A stretch of 64,000 bases of DNA, from positions 1 through 64,000 of the IMG/VR virus record IMGVR_UViG_3300030099_006908; one strand, given 5' to 3'. The position numbers and the translations under genes were made by a program. The stretch is from a virus. Below the pieces are notes generated by a model. That model did no database searches and had not been told where the DNA came from. It saw nothing but the letters and a program-made list of their open reading frames with translations. Every line of letters starts with the position of its first letter. Position 1 is the first letter of the stretch. Shown one piece after another: positions 52,990-59,189 of this stretch.

Positions 52990-53097
52990 ATGAAAAATAG
53001 AATACTTGACAACTATCAAAACTCTGATATATTTTATATACAAATTACATTTTACGCTAATTACACCGAAGAGGATGTTTGGACTTATTATGCCTAA
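52990..53097 (+). CDS. 35-aa protein
   Basis: ATG 6 bases after AGGAG. MKNRILDNYQNSDIFYIQIT and a Tyr-rich acidic end (ANYTEEDVWTYYA). It fills the gap between the nuclease and dehydrogenase genes and overlaps the latter by 8 bases. The promoter-like sequence at 53006 lies inside it. Confidence 0.6.
   Translation: MKNRILDNYQNSDIFYIQITFYANYTEEDVWTYYA
53006..53033 (+). promoter_or_regulatory. Possible internal promoter
   Basis: TTGACA (53006-53011), 16 bases, TATATT (53028-53033), within the 35-aa gene. It could raise expression of the dehydrogenase and polymerase genes. Confidence 0.5.
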
Positions 53098-54226
53098 TAT
53101 ACTAATACTTGGAGCGGGAGGCATCGGCCTCCCAATCGCATCAGCGTTAAAGCACGAAGAATATAATCTTGTTCTGTCTGATTATTCTGAGGATGCCATT
53201 GGTAAAGCTAAGGACTATTTCGGTAGAACTAAGTTTGACAGTGAATGCTCCCTTGACTTTCATGTTGGCGATGCCAAGGATTATGTTCTAGAGAATAAGC
53301 ATGACTTTGACATAGTGGTATCAGCTTTGCCATACTACATGAACAAAGAAATAGCGTTCGCGTGTGTTTCCTCTTGTATAGCTTACGTTGACCTTGGCGG
53401 GCATGTAGACACAACCAATTATATTCGCAAGATTACTGAGGAAATTGGATGCGCTCCAGTGGCTAGTGACCAAGGACTAGCTCCAGGCTTAGTTAATATC
53501 TGTGCGGAAGAGGCTTTTGAAGCCGTTAAGGAAAACAAATACCGTAGTGCAAAAATAAAGATGGCCGTAGGCGGGCTTCCAGAAAAGGTGGGATTAAATC
53601 CTCTAGACTACATTGTTACTTGGTCTATTGATGGTTTGATTAACGAGTACAGGGGAGAGGCAGAGATTCTGTTGGGGGCAGAAAAGAAGAACGTACCCAC
53701 ACTCACTGGCCTAGAAACGATGACTGTTGACGGAGATGAGCTTGAGGCGTTTTACACAGCCGGTGGAAGCTCTCACACAATACAATCTATGCTTAACCAA
53801 ACCTCCCGTCCAATACCTGACGTTACATACAAGACGTTGCGATACCCAGGACACTTGGAGATGATAAAGTGGCTCATGGAAGAAATTGAGATGGACACAC
53901 AAGAGTTGGCACATCTATTTAAGTATGGTTGCGCGGCTTTGAATGAAAAGGATATTGTGAAGTTCTATGTCGAGGCTACTAATGGGAGCTTGTCTTACAA
54001 AAGAGAGCATACCTTCTATGCAAGCGAAGAGTTCTCTGCTATGCAGCGGTCTACCGCATACAGCGCAGCAGCGGCGATTCAGACAATGTATATAAATAGG
54101 CCGATACCAAACGACTCTTTTGCCCTCGATTATTCATACTTCTGTAGAGATTTGTTTCATGAGCGTTTTAGAGATGCTTTAAATAGAGACCGGCCAGAGA
54201 AAGAGAAAGAGTGGTTGGTCTCATGA
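53090..54226 (+). CDS. Saccharopine-dehydrogenase-like oxidoreductase
   Basis: 378 aa from ATG 53090. NILILGAGGIGLPIASAL is the NAD(P)-binding Rossmann loop, VVSALPYYMNKEIAFACVSS and YVDLGGHVDTT the family's central motifs, and SDQGLAPGLVNICAEEAFEA the substrate-domain entry. Closest in length to lysine 6-dehydrogenase or saccharopine reductase. An amino-acid dehydrogenase inside a replication operon is unexpected; the substrate cannot be told from sequence. Confidence 0.82.
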   Translation: MPNILILGAGGIGLPIASALKHEEYNLVLSDYSEDAIGKAKDYFGRTKFDSECSLDFHVGDAKDYVLENKHDFDIVVSALPYYMNKEIAFACVSSCIAYVDLGGHVDTTNYIRKITEEIGCAPVASDQGLAPGLVNICAEEAFEAVKENKYRSAKIKMAVGGLPEKVGLNPLDYIVTWSIDGLINEYRGEAEILLGAEKKNVPTLTGLETMTVDGDELEAFYTAGGSSHTIQSMLNQTSRPIPDVTYKTLRYPGHLEMIKWLMEEIEMDTQELAHLFKYGCAALNEKDIVKFYVEATNGSLSYKREHTFYASEEFSAMQRSTAYSAAAAIQTMYINRPIPNDSFALDYSYFCRDLFHERFRDALNRDRPEKEKEWLVS

Positions 54227-56184
54227 CATTTTTCCCACTTCATGTTCACAGTCACGACAGCCTTCTTGATGGTCTTAGTAAGCCTAAAGATATTGCTAAG
54301 AGATGTACAGAGCTTGGTCTAAAAGGATGCGCTTTAACAGACCACGGCGTTCTCTCTGGTGCAGTCAGCTTCGTAGAAGCCATGAAGTCTGCCGGACTAA
54401 AACCTATACTTGGATGCGAGTTCTATATTTGTGAGGGCGACCCTACTGACAAGGAGAATAGGACTCGCTCCAACACACACCTCGTCGTGCTTGCCAAGAA
54501 CAATCAAGGCTGGCAAGACCTAATCGCTGCAACATCCCAGTCCAATCACCCAGACTATTTCTACTATGCTCCAAGACTAGACTTGGCTACACTCAAGAAG
54601 TTTTGCACAGGAAACTGGATTGCGTTTAGTGGACACATGGGTTCGCATCTAGCTAACGATATGTTCATAGACCACAAAGAAGCCTACTCTGCCCAAAGCT
54701 ACGACGAAGCAACCAAGATGGTTGATAAAGATTGGGTAAATAAGGTTTCTGGTAAAGCTAAGGAACTTGAGGATGTCTTTGGCAAAGGAAACTTCTTCCT
54801 AGAAATACAGCTAATAGACGTAGACAATCTTCCTGCTTCTGGCGTAGTCGCAAAAGGGCTTAGATACCTAAGTAAGAAAATCGACATTCCATGTGTCGCA
54901 ACACCAGACGCTCACTATGCTTGTCCAGAGGATGCAGATGACCAGAGAGTTCTTCTGTCTAATCACCCAAGCATAGATACTCCTCTCAAGGACATCTACA
55001 AGAAGATGGTTTCAGGAGACGATATAAGCCTGGGAGCTTTCTTTAAGTCCAGAAATTATTACATTCCTGGACATGACGAAATGATGAAACTCCACACAGA
55101 GGAAGAGGTTGCAAATACAGAGAAGATTGCCGATATGTGCGAAGAATATACAATTACTGGAAAACCGATGCCGCCTAGATTTCCCCTGCCAGAAAAAGTA
55201 ACAGCAATTGACAGGCTCAGAGAAAGATGCCGTGAGGGTTGGCAAAAAAGATGGCCCGCAATTAAAAGCGTTATAGACAGCACTGAACACACGAAAGAAG
55301 AGTATGCCGAACGATTTGAGATGGAAATATCCATTCTTGAGAACGCAAATCTAGCGGACTACTTCTTAATTGTTGACGACATCATCAACTGGGCTAGAAA
55401 AGACGGTCAGCTTACAGGAGCCGGTAGAGGCTCTGCTGACGGCTCTCTAATTCTATATCTTTTAGAAGTAGGTCATATAGACCCAATCAAACACGATTTA
55501 ATGTTCGAGAGATTTTACAACGCCGGACGAAATACAGCAGACAGAGTGTCCCTTCCTGATGTGGATATGGACTTCGAGAAGCTTGGTCGTGAGCGTATAA
55601 TTGGCTATATAAACGACAGGTTTGGTGAAGATAGAGTTTCTCAAATGATTACGTTTAGCAAGATGCAAGGACGGGCTGTACTGCAAGATGTAATGAGAGC
55701 GCACAGCGCATGTAGTCCAGAAGAGAGAAACAGAATCACAAAGAACATACCCGATGAAGCAGACATTTCTGACCAGCTTGAAGATATGCGTCAAGCAGAC
55801 AAAGATTCTGGCGGCGACGGTAGCGCTAGCATAATTCAGTGGGCTTTGGAGAACAGAGAAGAGGACTTGAAACAGTGGTGCTACCTTGGCGAAAACGGAA
55901 ACCTTCAGGGTCCAATGTCAAAGATATTTGAACAAGCTATACGCATGGAGGGAACAAAGCGTTCTCGCAGTAAACACGCAGCGGGAATTGTGATTGCCAA
56001 CGAACCTCTTGCTAAGATTTGTCCCATGGTCTACGACAAAAGCTCTGGCGAAAGCATTGCTGGAATGGAAATGAATGACCTGGAGTCTATGGGACATATC
56101 AAGTTTGACATTCTTGGAATTGCAATTCTAGATAAGATTCACGGAGTTCAAGACCTATTGTCTACCGGAGAGTTTCGTGATTGA
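54223..56184 (+). CDS. dnaE: DNA polymerase III alpha, N-terminal part (PHP and palm)
   Basis: 653 aa. PHP domain at the start (FPLHVHSHDSLLDGLSKPKD, CALTDHGVLSG), palm with TGAGRGSADGSLILYLL and SLPDVDMDFE (two catalytic Asp near residue 446), SKHAAGIVIAN, and HIKFDILGIAILDKI with the third Asp (about residue 629). The protein stops 24 residues later, before the fingers. The rest is the separate gene at 57489. No intein sequence is present at the end. ATGA overlap upstream. Confidence 0.9.
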   Translation: MTFFPLHVHSHDSLLDGLSKPKDIAKRCTELGLKGCALTDHGVLSGAVSFVEAMKSAGLKPILGCEFYICEGDPTDKENRTRSNTHLVVLAKNNQGWQDLIAATSQSNHPDYFYYAPRLDLATLKKFCTGNWIAFSGHMGSHLANDMFIDHKEAYSAQSYDEATKMVDKDWVNKVSGKAKELEDVFGKGNFFLEIQLIDVDNLPASGVVAKGLRYLSKKIDIPCVATPDAHYACPEDADDQRVLLSNHPSIDTPLKDIYKKMVSGDDISLGAFFKSRNYYIPGHDEMMKLHTEEEVANTEKIADMCEEYTITGKPMPPRFPLPEKVTAIDRLRERCREGWQKRWPAIKSVIDSTEHTKEEYAERFEMEISILENANLADYFLIVDDIINWARKDGQLTGAGRGSADGSLILYLLEVGHIDPIKHDLMFERFYNAGRNTADRVSLPDVDMDFEKLGRERIIGYINDRFGEDRVSQMITFSKMQGRAVLQDVMRAHSACSPEERNRITKNIPDEADISDQLEDMRQADKDSGGDGSASIIQWALENREEDLKQWCYLGENGNLQGPMSKIFEQAIRMEGTKRSRSKHAAGIVIANEPLAKICPMVYDKSSGESIAGMEMNDLESMGHIKFDILGIAILDKIHGVQDLLSTGEFRD

Positions 56185-56767
56185 GTTAGAGAAACTAAAA
56201 ACTGAATACTCATCATGTGAAATATGCTCTCTGTGCCCTAAGAAGAGCGGCATAAATGGTGTGGTAAAGTCTAGCGGCCCCGTTTCTTCTTTAGCGATAA
56301 TTGGAGAAGCTCCGGGAGCAGACGAAGACTCTGCCGGAGAACCTTTTGTCGGAAGGGCGGGCAAGATGCTTGACAAGCTGCTTGAGGGAGCTAAAATAAA
56401 AAGGCATCAGGTTTTTATTACAAACGCTGTGAAGTGCAGGCCCACACAAAACAACGGAAAGAAAAATAGAACTCCCACTGCTGATGAATGCGAGTCTTGT
56501 AGCCCATGGCTATACAAAGAAATAGATTTAGTTAAACCAAAGGTTATTGTAACTCTTGGTAAAACATCGGCTGAAGCTGTTTTGCCTTTACCTAAAAATT
56601 TTACACTTGGTAATTATATAAATAAGTCTCATGAATCTAGCATTGGAAACGGTGCGTACACAGTTGTTCCGTGTTGGCACCCGTCTTACCTTATGCAGCA
56701 TGGCAGAAAGAAGTTTGATGAGGCTGTAGACTGTTTTAAGTTGGCAAAGAAATTGGTATTGAAATGA
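56177..56767 (+). CDS. Family-4-type uracil-DNA glycosylase
   Basis: 196 aa, GTG start after GGAGAG, overlapping the polymerase gene by 8 bases. SSCEICSLCPKK gives Fe-S cysteines, LAIIGEAPGADEDSAGEPF and VGRAGKMLDKLL the uracil pocket motif A, AVKCRPTQNN and DECESCSPWL further cluster cysteines, and VPCWHPSYLMQHG motif B. Removes uracil from DNA. Unusual place between two halves of a polymerase. Confidence 0.88.
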   Translation: MIELEKLKTEYSSCEICSLCPKKSGINGVVKSSGPVSSLAIIGEAPGADEDSAGEPFVGRAGKMLDKLLEGAKIKRHQVFITNAVKCRPTQNNGKKNRTPTADECESCSPWLYKEIDLVKPKVIVTLGKTSAEAVLPLPKNFTLGNYINKSHESSIGNGAYTVVPCWHPSYLMQHGRKKFDEAVDCFKLAKKLVLK

Positions 56768-57492
56768 ATTATAACTCTATATGCTGTTACGATTATGAGA
56801 CTGGTTCTCCCGACTCATCTACGTGTTCTATCATACAAATAGCCGCAGAGATGATACACGGAAGGAATTTAAATGTAGTTGACAAATTTTCTGCCTATGT
56901 CCGCCCGGACTTTGACGACAAAGAATCCACGACAGACGAAACAATAGATTGGCATTGCAGGAACAAAGGCATGTCAAAAAAGAAGTTTGTAGATATGCTA
57001 AACGAGTGCCCTCCAATAAATGTTGTATGGAAAAACTTTTCCTCTTGGATTGACAAATACAACTGGGGTAAGACTAATAAGAGTGGCTATCATGCTCCGG
57101 TGTCTGCTGGATACAATATACTTGGATTTGACAATCCTATTACTGATAGGCACTGCAAAATATTTGGACCGACTGAAAAAGACAGGCGCAGCGGCGAAGA
57201 GAGGCCAAGGATGTTTAATCAAATATACAGCTTTGATTTAATGCAGCATGTCTGGTATTGGTTTGAGAATAACAGCGAGCTTAAAAACCAAAAGCTAACA
57301 ACCGTCTTAGAGTACATGGGTGTGCCGGAGGAGGTGACTGCAAACGCTCATGACGCAGAGTTTGATGTTGAGTGGACATCTAAGGTCATCATAAAGCTGT
57401 TGAAAACATCTAGATGGATGACTGGATGGAATGAACAAAAGCAGAAAAGAAGACTTGAATTTGCTAACGCATTTGCACAGGAGTTTAAATGA
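56764..57492 (+). CDS. DEDDh 3'-5' exonuclease (epsilon-like)
   Basis: 242 aa. CCYDYETGSPD (Asp10, Glu12), YNILGFDNPI (Asp) and NAHDAEFDVEW (His and Asp) are the DEDDh residues. Probably the proofreading exonuclease of the split polymerase encoded on both sides. Translation is coupled by ATGA overlaps at both ends. Confidence 0.85.
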   Translation: MNYNSICCYDYETGSPDSSTCSIIQIAAEMIHGRNLNVVDKFSAYVRPDFDDKESTTDETIDWHCRNKGMSKKKFVDMLNECPPINVVWKNFSSWIDKYNWGKTNKSGYHAPVSAGYNILGFDNPITDRHCKIFGPTEKDRRSGEERPRMFNQIYSFDLMQHVWYWFENNSELKNQKLTTVLEYMGVPEEVTANAHDAEFDVEWTSKVIIKLLKTSRWMTGWNEQKQKRRLEFANAFAQEFK

Positions 57493-59189
57493 GTAAGGTT
57501 AGATGGCCGTGTGGATGTGAGCTTCCAGTAAAGAGTTGTTCTGACACACCAATGGTGATTAACGTAGAGTTCGGAGATACGCTTCCTAAAGGTATAGAGC
57601 TAGATGTCTACAGCATGAATCTTAATTGTGAAGCAACTTGGGACATGATATGCAGCGGCAGGACGAAAGGCGTTTTTCAGCTAGAGAGCGCACTTGGTCG
57701 TCAATGGGCCAAGAAACTAGAACCAAGAAGCATTGAAGAGCTTGGAGCGCTAGGCGCTTTACTTCGTCCAGGGTGCCTTAGAGCCATGTCTGGAAATCCA
57801 CCAAAGAGCATGACGCAAAGATATTGCGATAGAAAGCATGGTGTTGAACAAGTCGTTTATCCTCACGAATCATTGGAACCGATTCTTAAAAAGACGCAAG
57901 GCGTACTAACTTTTCAAGAGCAAGCCATGAAGATAGCTGTAGTTCTTGCTGGTTTCAATGAGCAGCAAGCGGACATCCTCCGCAAGGCTATCGGTAAAAA
58001 GAAAGCCGATGTTATGCATGAGGTTAAGAAGTCCTTTCTTGAGGGCGCTAAAAAAACAGGTATAGTATCAGAAGAACTGGCTGAGGAAATTTTTGGCTGG
58101 ATTCAGGAGTCCCAGAGATACTCTTTTAACAAAAGCCACGCAGACGCATATGCGCTCAATGGATATTGGAGCGCGTTTTGCAAAACACATATGCCGCTTG
58201 AGTTTTATTGCTCTTGGCTTAGGGGTGCAGCGTGGAAAGGCGCAAAGCAATACGAGGAAATTTACGACCTAGTAAATGACGCAAAGGTAAACAACATAGA
58301 CGTTCTTCCCCCAACGCTTGCAGACAAAAGAAACACTTTCTACATCAAAGACAAGAAGGTTTATTTCGGTCTTTCTAGCATCAGAGGCATAGGCTCTGCT
58401 GTAATCGAGAAGATAGTAGAAAAGCTAACTGATGTAGAAAAAAAGCTGGGCAGAGGTATTGGCGCATGGATGTGGCTTGAATATTTAAAGTATGGAACAG
58501 AATGTGTATCATCCAACGTAACCGAGGGGATGATAAAGGCTGGGGCTTTAGACTTCTTTGAGCGTTCAAGAAACGAGATGCTTTATGAGTATTCTATATG
58601 GTCGCAACTTAGCCCAACAGAAAAAAAGTGGATTGTAAATGAATACAGCGGATACAAACTGATTGAAGCATTAAAGCGGTGTCAGCCAAAAAGAGTGATG
58701 AAAAATAAAGTCCAGGTTGCTGGTGGAGGATGTGTAAATGATAAGCGCTCTAATTTTGTAGGAGATTTAATCACATCCTTAAAAAATCCACCTCACAAGT
58801 TGCAAGATAGCATGGATTGGATTGCTTGGAATGAACAAAAAACACTGGGCGCTCCAATAACCTGTAGCAGAGTGGATGCGCTGGAAAGGGGAATAGAGGC
58901 TAATTGTACCTGCAAGGAATTCATTACGACAAAAAGAAAAGACTATATGAAGTTTGCTGTAGAAGTCACCAAGGTGAAAGTAGTAAAAACAAAAAATGGA
59001 AAAAACCCTGGTAAAGAAATGGCTTTTCTTACCCTAGAAGATAACAGTTGCTCTTTAGATGACGTAGTTTGTTTTCCAGATATTTTTCAAGAGTGTCGAG
59101 ACGCCATATATGAAGGAAACACAATATTGGTTCAGGGAGATAGAGGACGAAATGACTCTCTTGTTGTCGGTCAAATATGGCAAATTTAA
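57489..59189 (+). CDS. dnaE: DNA polymerase III alpha, C-terminal part (fingers to OB)
   Basis: 566 aa. After a short zinc-like opening (RWPCGCELPVKSC), WDMICSGRTKGVFQLESALG begins the part of the palm-fingers junction missing from the 54223 protein, followed by LRPGCLRAMSG, LTFQEQAMKIAVVLAGFNEQ, ADILRKAIGKKK and YSFNKSHADAYALNGYW (fingers), a helix-hairpin-helix (LSSIRGIGSAVIEKI) and an OB-like end. Together the two proteins make about 1,220 residues, a full DnaE. Confidence 0.9.
   Translation: MSKVRWPCGCELPVKSCSDTPMVINVEFGDTLPKGIELDVYSMNLNCEATWDMICSGRTKGVFQLESALGRQWAKKLEPRSIEELGALGALLRPGCLRAMSGNPPKSMTQRYCDRKHGVEQVVYPHESLEPILKKTQGVLTFQEQAMKIAVVLAGFNEQQADILRKAIGKKKADVMHEVKKSFLEGAKKTGIVSEELAEEIFGWIQESQRYSFNKSHADAYALNGYWSAFCKTHMPLEFYCSWLRGAAWKGAKQYEEIYDLVNDAKVNNIDVLPPTLADKRNTFYIKDKKVYFGLSSIRGIGSAVIEKIVEKLTDVEKKLGRGIGAWMWLEYLKYGTECVSSNVTEGMIKAGALDFFERSRNEMLYEYSIWSQLSPTEKKWIVNEYSGYKLIEALKRCQPKRVMKNKVQVAGGGCVNDKRSNFVGDLITSLKNPPHKLQDSMDWIAWNEQKTLGAPITCSRVDALERGIEANCTCKEFITTKRKDYMKFAVEVTKVKVVKTKNGKNPGKEMAFLTLEDNSCSLDDVVCFPDIFQECRDAIYEGNTILVQGDRGRNDSLVVGQIWQI

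Follow-up and report, generated by a model that had tools for sequence, protein, structure and literature searches.

A phage lineage whose DNA polymerase III alpha gene is broken between palm and fingers around a presumed proofreading exonuclease gene

What kind of replicase could be made from a DNA polymerase III alpha gene (dnaE) that is broken in two, with other genes lying in the break? This question is raised by a viral locus in a window of 64,000 nucleotides (the whole stretch of DNA analysed here, namely positions 1-64000 of a virus record that is 94,845 bases long). The locus contains four genes in series on the + strand: dnaE-N (54223..56184), a gene for a family-4 uracil-DNA glycosylase (UDG; 56177..56767), a gene for a DEDDh 3'-5' exonuclease (56764..57492) and dnaE-C (57489..59189). 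A first reading made from the sequence only had described dnaE as broken between palm and fingers, the gap as holding these two genes, and all genes as joined by ATGA or short overlaps. Its two dnaE ORFs lie where it placed them, the identity of the gap genes is borne out by Pfam, PHROG 192, fold and motif matches, and the overlaps measure 8, 4 and 4 nt. The UDG start overlaps the end of dnaE-N by 8 nt, while the exonuclease and dnaE-C starts are ATGA junctions. Upstream, a saccharopine-dehydrogenase-like gene (53084..54226, + strand; Pfam PF16653, 4.4e-21, and PF03435, 1.8e-08), given here as context only, is joined to dnaE-N by an ATGA overlap at 54223; by sequence inspection, a homolog of this gene sits within the dnaE gap of a relative, L034.

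The 653-aa product of dnaE-N comprises a PHP domain, the palm with its catalytic aspartates (PDVDMD and KFD) and the thumb, and matches DNA_pol3_alpha (PF07733, 1.9e-68) and PHP (PF02811, 3.1e-35). All 66/66 split representatives (see below) retain the catalytic aspartates and the GRGS motif unchanged. As first noted, 24 residues separate the third catalytic aspartate from the end of the protein. All nine PHP active-site positions (HHDHEHHDH) are canonical in the window, and each has the window's residue in 39-45 of the 66 representatives across the clade. This site (dnaE-N residues 6-230) is canonical in about 40 of the 66 and degenerate or truncated in the rest, the separate exonuclease being kept in all. 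We also observed further breaks in dnaE-N of L048, L076, L081 and L090, as well as in L011 (4326-7177), where a second break falls at the catalytic PDxD motif and a LAGLIDADG ORF lies in that gap.

The 566-aa product of dnaE-C carries the fingers, helix-hairpin-helix and OB fold (Pfam DNA_pol3_finger, 6.3e-45; HHH_6, 9e-11), preceded by a short Cys-Gly-Cys extension. Its AlphaFold2 model (pLDDT 90.8) matched 7pu7_A in Foldseek at 1.5e-22 over 545 columns, along with the Pol III alpha chains 3e0d and 5fku, and a profile match placed it across E. coli alpha residues 584-900 and 932-1055. Fingers residues such as RPG, LRKAIGKK and FNxSH are invariant among 45 sequences. The domain set of a C-family DnaE (PHP, palm with three aspartates, fingers, HhH and OB) is found in the two chains jointly and in neither alone. 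KGVFQLES, initially taken as the first conserved block of dnaE-C, is not where the homology starts, as similarity to cellular DnaE begins about 20 residues earlier, at ELDVYSMNLNCEATWDMI... Nevertheless, the view that no part of DnaE is lost at the break holds, and dnaE-C moreover gains about 36 extra N-terminal residues; therefore, something was added and nothing was lost. In intact homologs, about 16-37 residues separate the conserved palm and fingers blocks. Among 73 representatives of the split clade, dnaE-N terminates soon after LDKIMxI, and dnaE-C either has a short extension ahead of the fingers or begins with them directly.

In the window, this extension forms part of a three-cysteine element (57510..57629, + strand) at the new N terminus of dnaE-C, recognised from the co-occurrence of its cysteines. 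C8 and C10 (Cys-Gly-Cys) are found in 27/73 representatives, including the window, and C47 accompanies them in 27/27 cases as opposed to 3/46 of the other representatives, 43 of which have another residue, mostly Asp. The element is missing from the linker of intact homologs. Judging from the conservation pattern, it is probably a metal site that caps the new N terminus, although a search for a fourth metal ligand found none. An interchain zinc site was considered and rejected, as cysteine co-occurrence in dnaE-N and the exonuclease is weaker than within dnaE-C and is confounded by ancestry. In three relatives, an insertion near the beginning of the fingers lengthens the dnaE-C ORF (L223, 8827-11220, and L227, 8621-11011, about 250 aa; L036, 7497-9383), possibly an intein or an extra domain.

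The 242-aa exonuclease gave only sub-threshold Pfam matches. However, it matched PHROG 192, 'DNA polymerase exonuclease subunit', at 1.5e-20, and the DEDDh residues D10, E12, D123, H196 and D201 are invariant in 52 sequences. The ExoI DxE, ExoII D and ExoIII HxxxxD motifs and an RNase H-like fold are all present. Foldseek searches with its AlphaFold2 model (pLDDT 93.9) recovered the DEDDh fold in S. aureus DinG, the T. maritima PolC exonuclease 2p1j, RNase T and oligoribonucleases. No tblastn match at 1e-5 was obtained among 50,697 phage records. In the loci examined, the exonuclease is always a separate ORF and is never fused to dnaE-N or dnaE-C. Gene order and co-occurrence suggest that it is the proofreading subunit of the polymerase. 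The PolC exonuclease is only one of the folds closest to it, others being those of RNase T, DinG and oligoribonucleases, so it could also have another role, such as recombination or scavenging.

Viral contigs were searched with dnaE-C, the exonuclease and dnaE-N as queries. The first four scans, together with phage records, yielded 167 loci (which can share a contig) with both halves as separate ORFs. In 166 of them the gap contains the exonuclease, the exception being the cultured phage phiT1. Clustering of the 155 complete loci at 90% dnaE-C identity gave 73 clusters, in all of which the genes run N - exo - C and dnaE is broken at the same point. Furthermore, among 16 loci fetched via dnaE-N, the exonuclease comes next in 14, and all 10 loci that reach dnaE-C keep the order; of the other two, one is cut inside dnaE-N and one has no exonuclease in its 0.7 kb. 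As loci fetched via dnaE-C and via dnaE-N both show N - exo - C, selection based on the exonuclease cannot explain the order. Five further loci, from MAGs assigned to various bacterial groups, keep it as well. The 66 split representatives form a single clade in a first tree (SH-aLRT 100), as do 22 of them in a more careful tree (bootstrap/SH-aLRT 100/100). An uninterrupted dnaE in close relatives, which would have pointed to an assembly error, was sought and not found: in every clade member, DnaE is encoded by two genes rather than as a single polypeptide. Assembly error was rejected because the same break recurs in 73 clusters of independently assembled contigs. One record of 206,326 bases (G004) carries two dnaE-N/exonuclease/dnaE-C modules, at 53291 and 199351, that are about 88-90% identical; it probably represents two related genomes joined in assembly.

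We favor, with a probability of roughly 0.8, the reading that this locus specifies a C-family replicase in which two chains are obligatory, plus a separate, co-translated proofreader. Chain N would supply the PHP domain, palm, thumb and three catalytic aspartates, and chain C would contribute fingers, HhH and OB fold; neither half could polymerise alone. The two chains would dock, with no covalent link, in the way palm and fingers normally meet in Pol III alpha, and act as the phage replicative polymerase, while the exonuclease would be an epsilon-like proofreading subunit made in step through the overlapping start and stop codons. The linker was probably broken once, in the ancestor of the lineage, and genes such as those for UDG, nucleases, ThyX and glycosyltransferases later came to lie at the boundary as cargo. 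Formation of the heterodimer, its activity, contact between exonuclease and polymerase, and translational coupling are all predictions drawn from the gene sequences. Non-covalent assembly is the natural reading because DnaE is complete, no intein is present and the halves are separately conserved genes. The cultured phages P1201 and phiT1 (see below), with a dnaE broken at this linker, provide precedents.

A small, conserved ORF of 71-83 aa lies ahead of the exonuclease in 41/73 clusters (e.g. L039, 7089-7325) and is missing from the window; this family had no Pfam match when tested on L029 and no PHROG match when tested on L039. An unrelated family of 60-63 aa fills the same slot in most of 8 other representatives. 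The 71-83 aa protein is a candidate small replicase subunit. A more elaborate alternative would place the lineage's enzyme in a distinct class of multi-subunit phage Pol III. Its alpha would always consist of two subunits, the proofreader would dock at or near the palm-fingers junction, matching the position of its gene, and the 71-83 aa protein would be a core subunit; in the window's branch, the three-Cys element would bind metal and cap the free end of chain C. We consider this elaboration rather doubtful.

Whether the UDG belongs with the polymerase is a separate matter. This 196-aa protein, translated from a GTG start, matches the UDG family of Pfam at 1.6e-37, and its assignment to family 4 is based on a phmmer match to 4zbx (7.5e-32), four Fe-S cysteines and aligned GEAPGxxED and HPS motifs. 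That polymerase, proofreader and UDG form one dedicated replication-repair unit is suggested by the ATGA junction and by purifying selection on the UDG (dN/dS 0.054, relative at 84% identity). Furthermore, the same slot holds a UDG on separate tree branches (L028; L033/L035/L037/L038), and other phage polymerases also carry family-4 UDG domains (matches to a PDB polymerase chain of 1142 aa, 2.7e-12, and to PHROG 17 DNA polymerase, 3.2e-05). In addition, dUTPase was found in 0/2 UDG-bearing records checked compared to 6/11 others. Nevertheless, such a unit is unlikely. Apart from the window and its near-copies, a UDG between dnaE-N and the exonuclease was seen in five loci. Four of these are cluster representatives, and just 5/73 representatives have the gene. 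The gaps of L005 and L006 lack it although their dnaE-N, exonuclease and dnaE-C are 91-96% identical to those of the window, and the L005 record has no UDG anywhere; UDG is missing in 13/15 long records. We therefore rejected UDG as a fixed partner. As to the four-gene order that the sequence-only reading proposed to look for in other phages, N - exo - C recurs in 73/73 clusters and the UDG does not. Likewise, from its unit of polymerase, proofreader and uracil removal, the proofreader stays because the exonuclease occupies the gap of all 73 clusters, whereas uracil removal drops out.

The same place is used by many other genes, including those for Endonuclease VII, GIY-YIG-type proteins, ThyX, glycosyltransferases and DUF1559, and the gap ranges from about 0.6 to 6.8 kb across clusters. 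The 6.8 kb gap, in L034 (1225-7983), holds eight genes between dnaE-N and dnaE-C, including those for an aldehyde dehydrogenase and an aminotransferase-like protein. Between dnaE-N and the exonuclease, 33% of representatives carry an insertion of 300 bp or more, and between the exonuclease and dnaE-C 18% do. At neighbouring boundaries, the corresponding figures are 49% (PDD-N), 31% (dNMK-PDD) and 0-2% (DnaB-Prim and Prim-dNMK). Because some neighbouring boundaries show equally high rates, we found no support for the gap as a special cargo hotspot; the break behaves as an ordinary gene boundary. The DUF1559 gene (PF07596, type-IV-pilin-like; Pfam run on L054) in the dnaE gap of L049/L054 gave a weak hint of the host, such genes being typical of Planctomycetes. 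PF07596 nevertheless went unmatched in 15 other records (where the control was also unmatched), and the MAG bins disagree, so Planctomycetes are no more than a candidate host group.

Alternatively, the halves could be rejoined by a group I/II intron or a split intein, with the exonuclease and UDG as passengers in the intervening element. Phage PolB offers known cases of split inteins accompanied by free-standing endonucleases (PMC6892783), and the family itself shows comparable elements at other sites, namely the intron-like break with a LAGLIDADG gene in L011 and a true split intein in dnaE-C of L195 (11162-14157; G004:C1:190000-206326). The latter interrupts dnaE-C at RYSFNK|SHSSAY, with IntN starting at CLSPDS, IntC ending at GIAVSN and a free 309-aa endonuclease-like ORF between them. 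In cyanobacterial DnaE, the split intein sits only a few residues away from this site. At the palm-fingers break, the original claim that no intein is present was confirmed, as no intein sequence was found at either end of the junctions in 73 representatives. Rfam gave no match in the window even at E<=1 and none at the gathering threshold in six relatives, leaving neither a fractured gene with a split intein nor a recognisable group I/II intron at the break. Group I introns diverged beyond Rfam are conceivable there. Furthermore, the stop of dnaE-N and the separate start of dnaE-C occupy constant positions across all clusters while the length of the gap varies, and the exonuclease is present in every cluster, unlike a mobile passenger. 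A split intein at the break would have been recognised, since the one in L195 was. We therefore consider rejoining very improbable; with no intein or intron found at the break and a recognisable intein elsewhere, non-covalent assembly is the best reading.

Compared to relatives about 92-96% identical, dN/dS was 0.031-0.045 for dnaE-N, 0.015-0.054 for the exonuclease and 0.026-0.053 for dnaE-C; with the UDG included, the values span 0.015-0.054, which indicates strong purifying selection on each of the four genes. A decaying, non-functional dnaE, the phage using the host replicase and the halves being remnants or having other roles, is hardly credible, for despite the extra breaks in dnaE-N or dnaE-C of L011, L048, L076, L081, L090 and L195, selection is strong, the catalytic residues are invariant and both halves are deeply conserved. 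No PolA or PolB family match was found in 15 records of 95-206 kb, all of which contain the alpha palm; as these records are unclosed or fragmentary, a second, divergent polymerase is still thinkable. The sliding clamp (PF00712) was not found in 13 records. The lack of a recognisable PolA or PolB, together with the invariant catalytic residues, makes an obligate two-chain replicase most likely.

If the two-chain replicase is real, this family would provide a family-wide natural two-chain replicative C-family polymerase, the palm-fingers linker would be dispensable, and palm and fingers could be assayed separately in a ready-made way. The proofreader gene lies physically within its presumed polymerase gene in a widespread uncultivated phage lineage, and annotation pipelines or phylogenies that assume a single dnaE will miss or truncate such replicases.

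Several known systems resemble the arrangement in part. In Corynebacterium phage P1201 (gp59/gp58, NC_009816), alpha is split at the same palm-fingers linker into overlapping genes, N ending after LKLDCLGLKTMTIISD... and C starting at the fingers. Unlike the window family, P1201 has no gap gene and no exonuclease there. Its alpha lies on an unrelated branch, where its sister is the uninterrupted gene of Mycobacterium phage SirHarley; a common origin with the family was rejected (AU p 6.6e-66). Rossellomorea phage phiT1 (gp20/gp19/gp18, PV767480), with a complete genome and a named host, has its sole annotated DNA polymerase split at the same linker, with a 49-aa ORF in the gap instead of the exonuclease; it was placed outside the family, although a common origin was not rejected (AU p 0.20). 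In group 2.2 jumbo phages, the Pol III alpha catalytic module occurs as two proteins that are believed to come together as a single enzyme (Iyer et al. 2021, PMC7824862). That split alpha is minimal, without other Pol III domains, and is encoded by distant genes beside a family B polymerase, whereas the window family has a complete PHP-to-OB alpha encoded by adjacent genes and no PF00136 match in 15 records. Elsewhere, dnaE is broken after PHP (phages Rope, Suzy, Hiddenleaf and Peregrin), inside the palm (Jayan) or inside the fingers (MMB025), and is in three pieces in phage G. MEP401-type marine OM43 phages have a DNA polymerase gene split in two by a small inserted ORF (PMC10580990). This insert has no known function, whereas the gap in the window's family holds an exonuclease gene. 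The MEP401-type polymerase presumably belongs to a different polymerase family.

Cyanobacterial DnaE is split by an intein (PMC3919608), and fractured genes with split inteins and free-standing endonucleases have been described (Dassa et al. 2009, as cited in PMC6892783). There, too, a replication gene is encoded in separate halves, and nuclease genes sometimes occupy the gap in relatives, but the intein parts are missing at the break in the window. Bacterial alpha-epsilon likewise combines a C-family polymerase with a DEDDh exonuclease, whereas in PolC the exonuclease is a domain inside the polymerase chain rather than a separate ORF. In Pbunavirus, the exonuclease gene precedes an intact dnaE, whose start it overlaps in Pseudomonas phage LS1, while that of the window lies inside the broken gene. 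The N - exo - C arrangement was not described in the openly accessible literature searched, the nearest report being that on jumbo phages. Split dnaE itself was already known from a few phages. Therefore, because P1201, phiT1, jumbo and other phages also split dnaE, what is new here is confined to the lineage-wide fixation of the break and the embedded proofreader.
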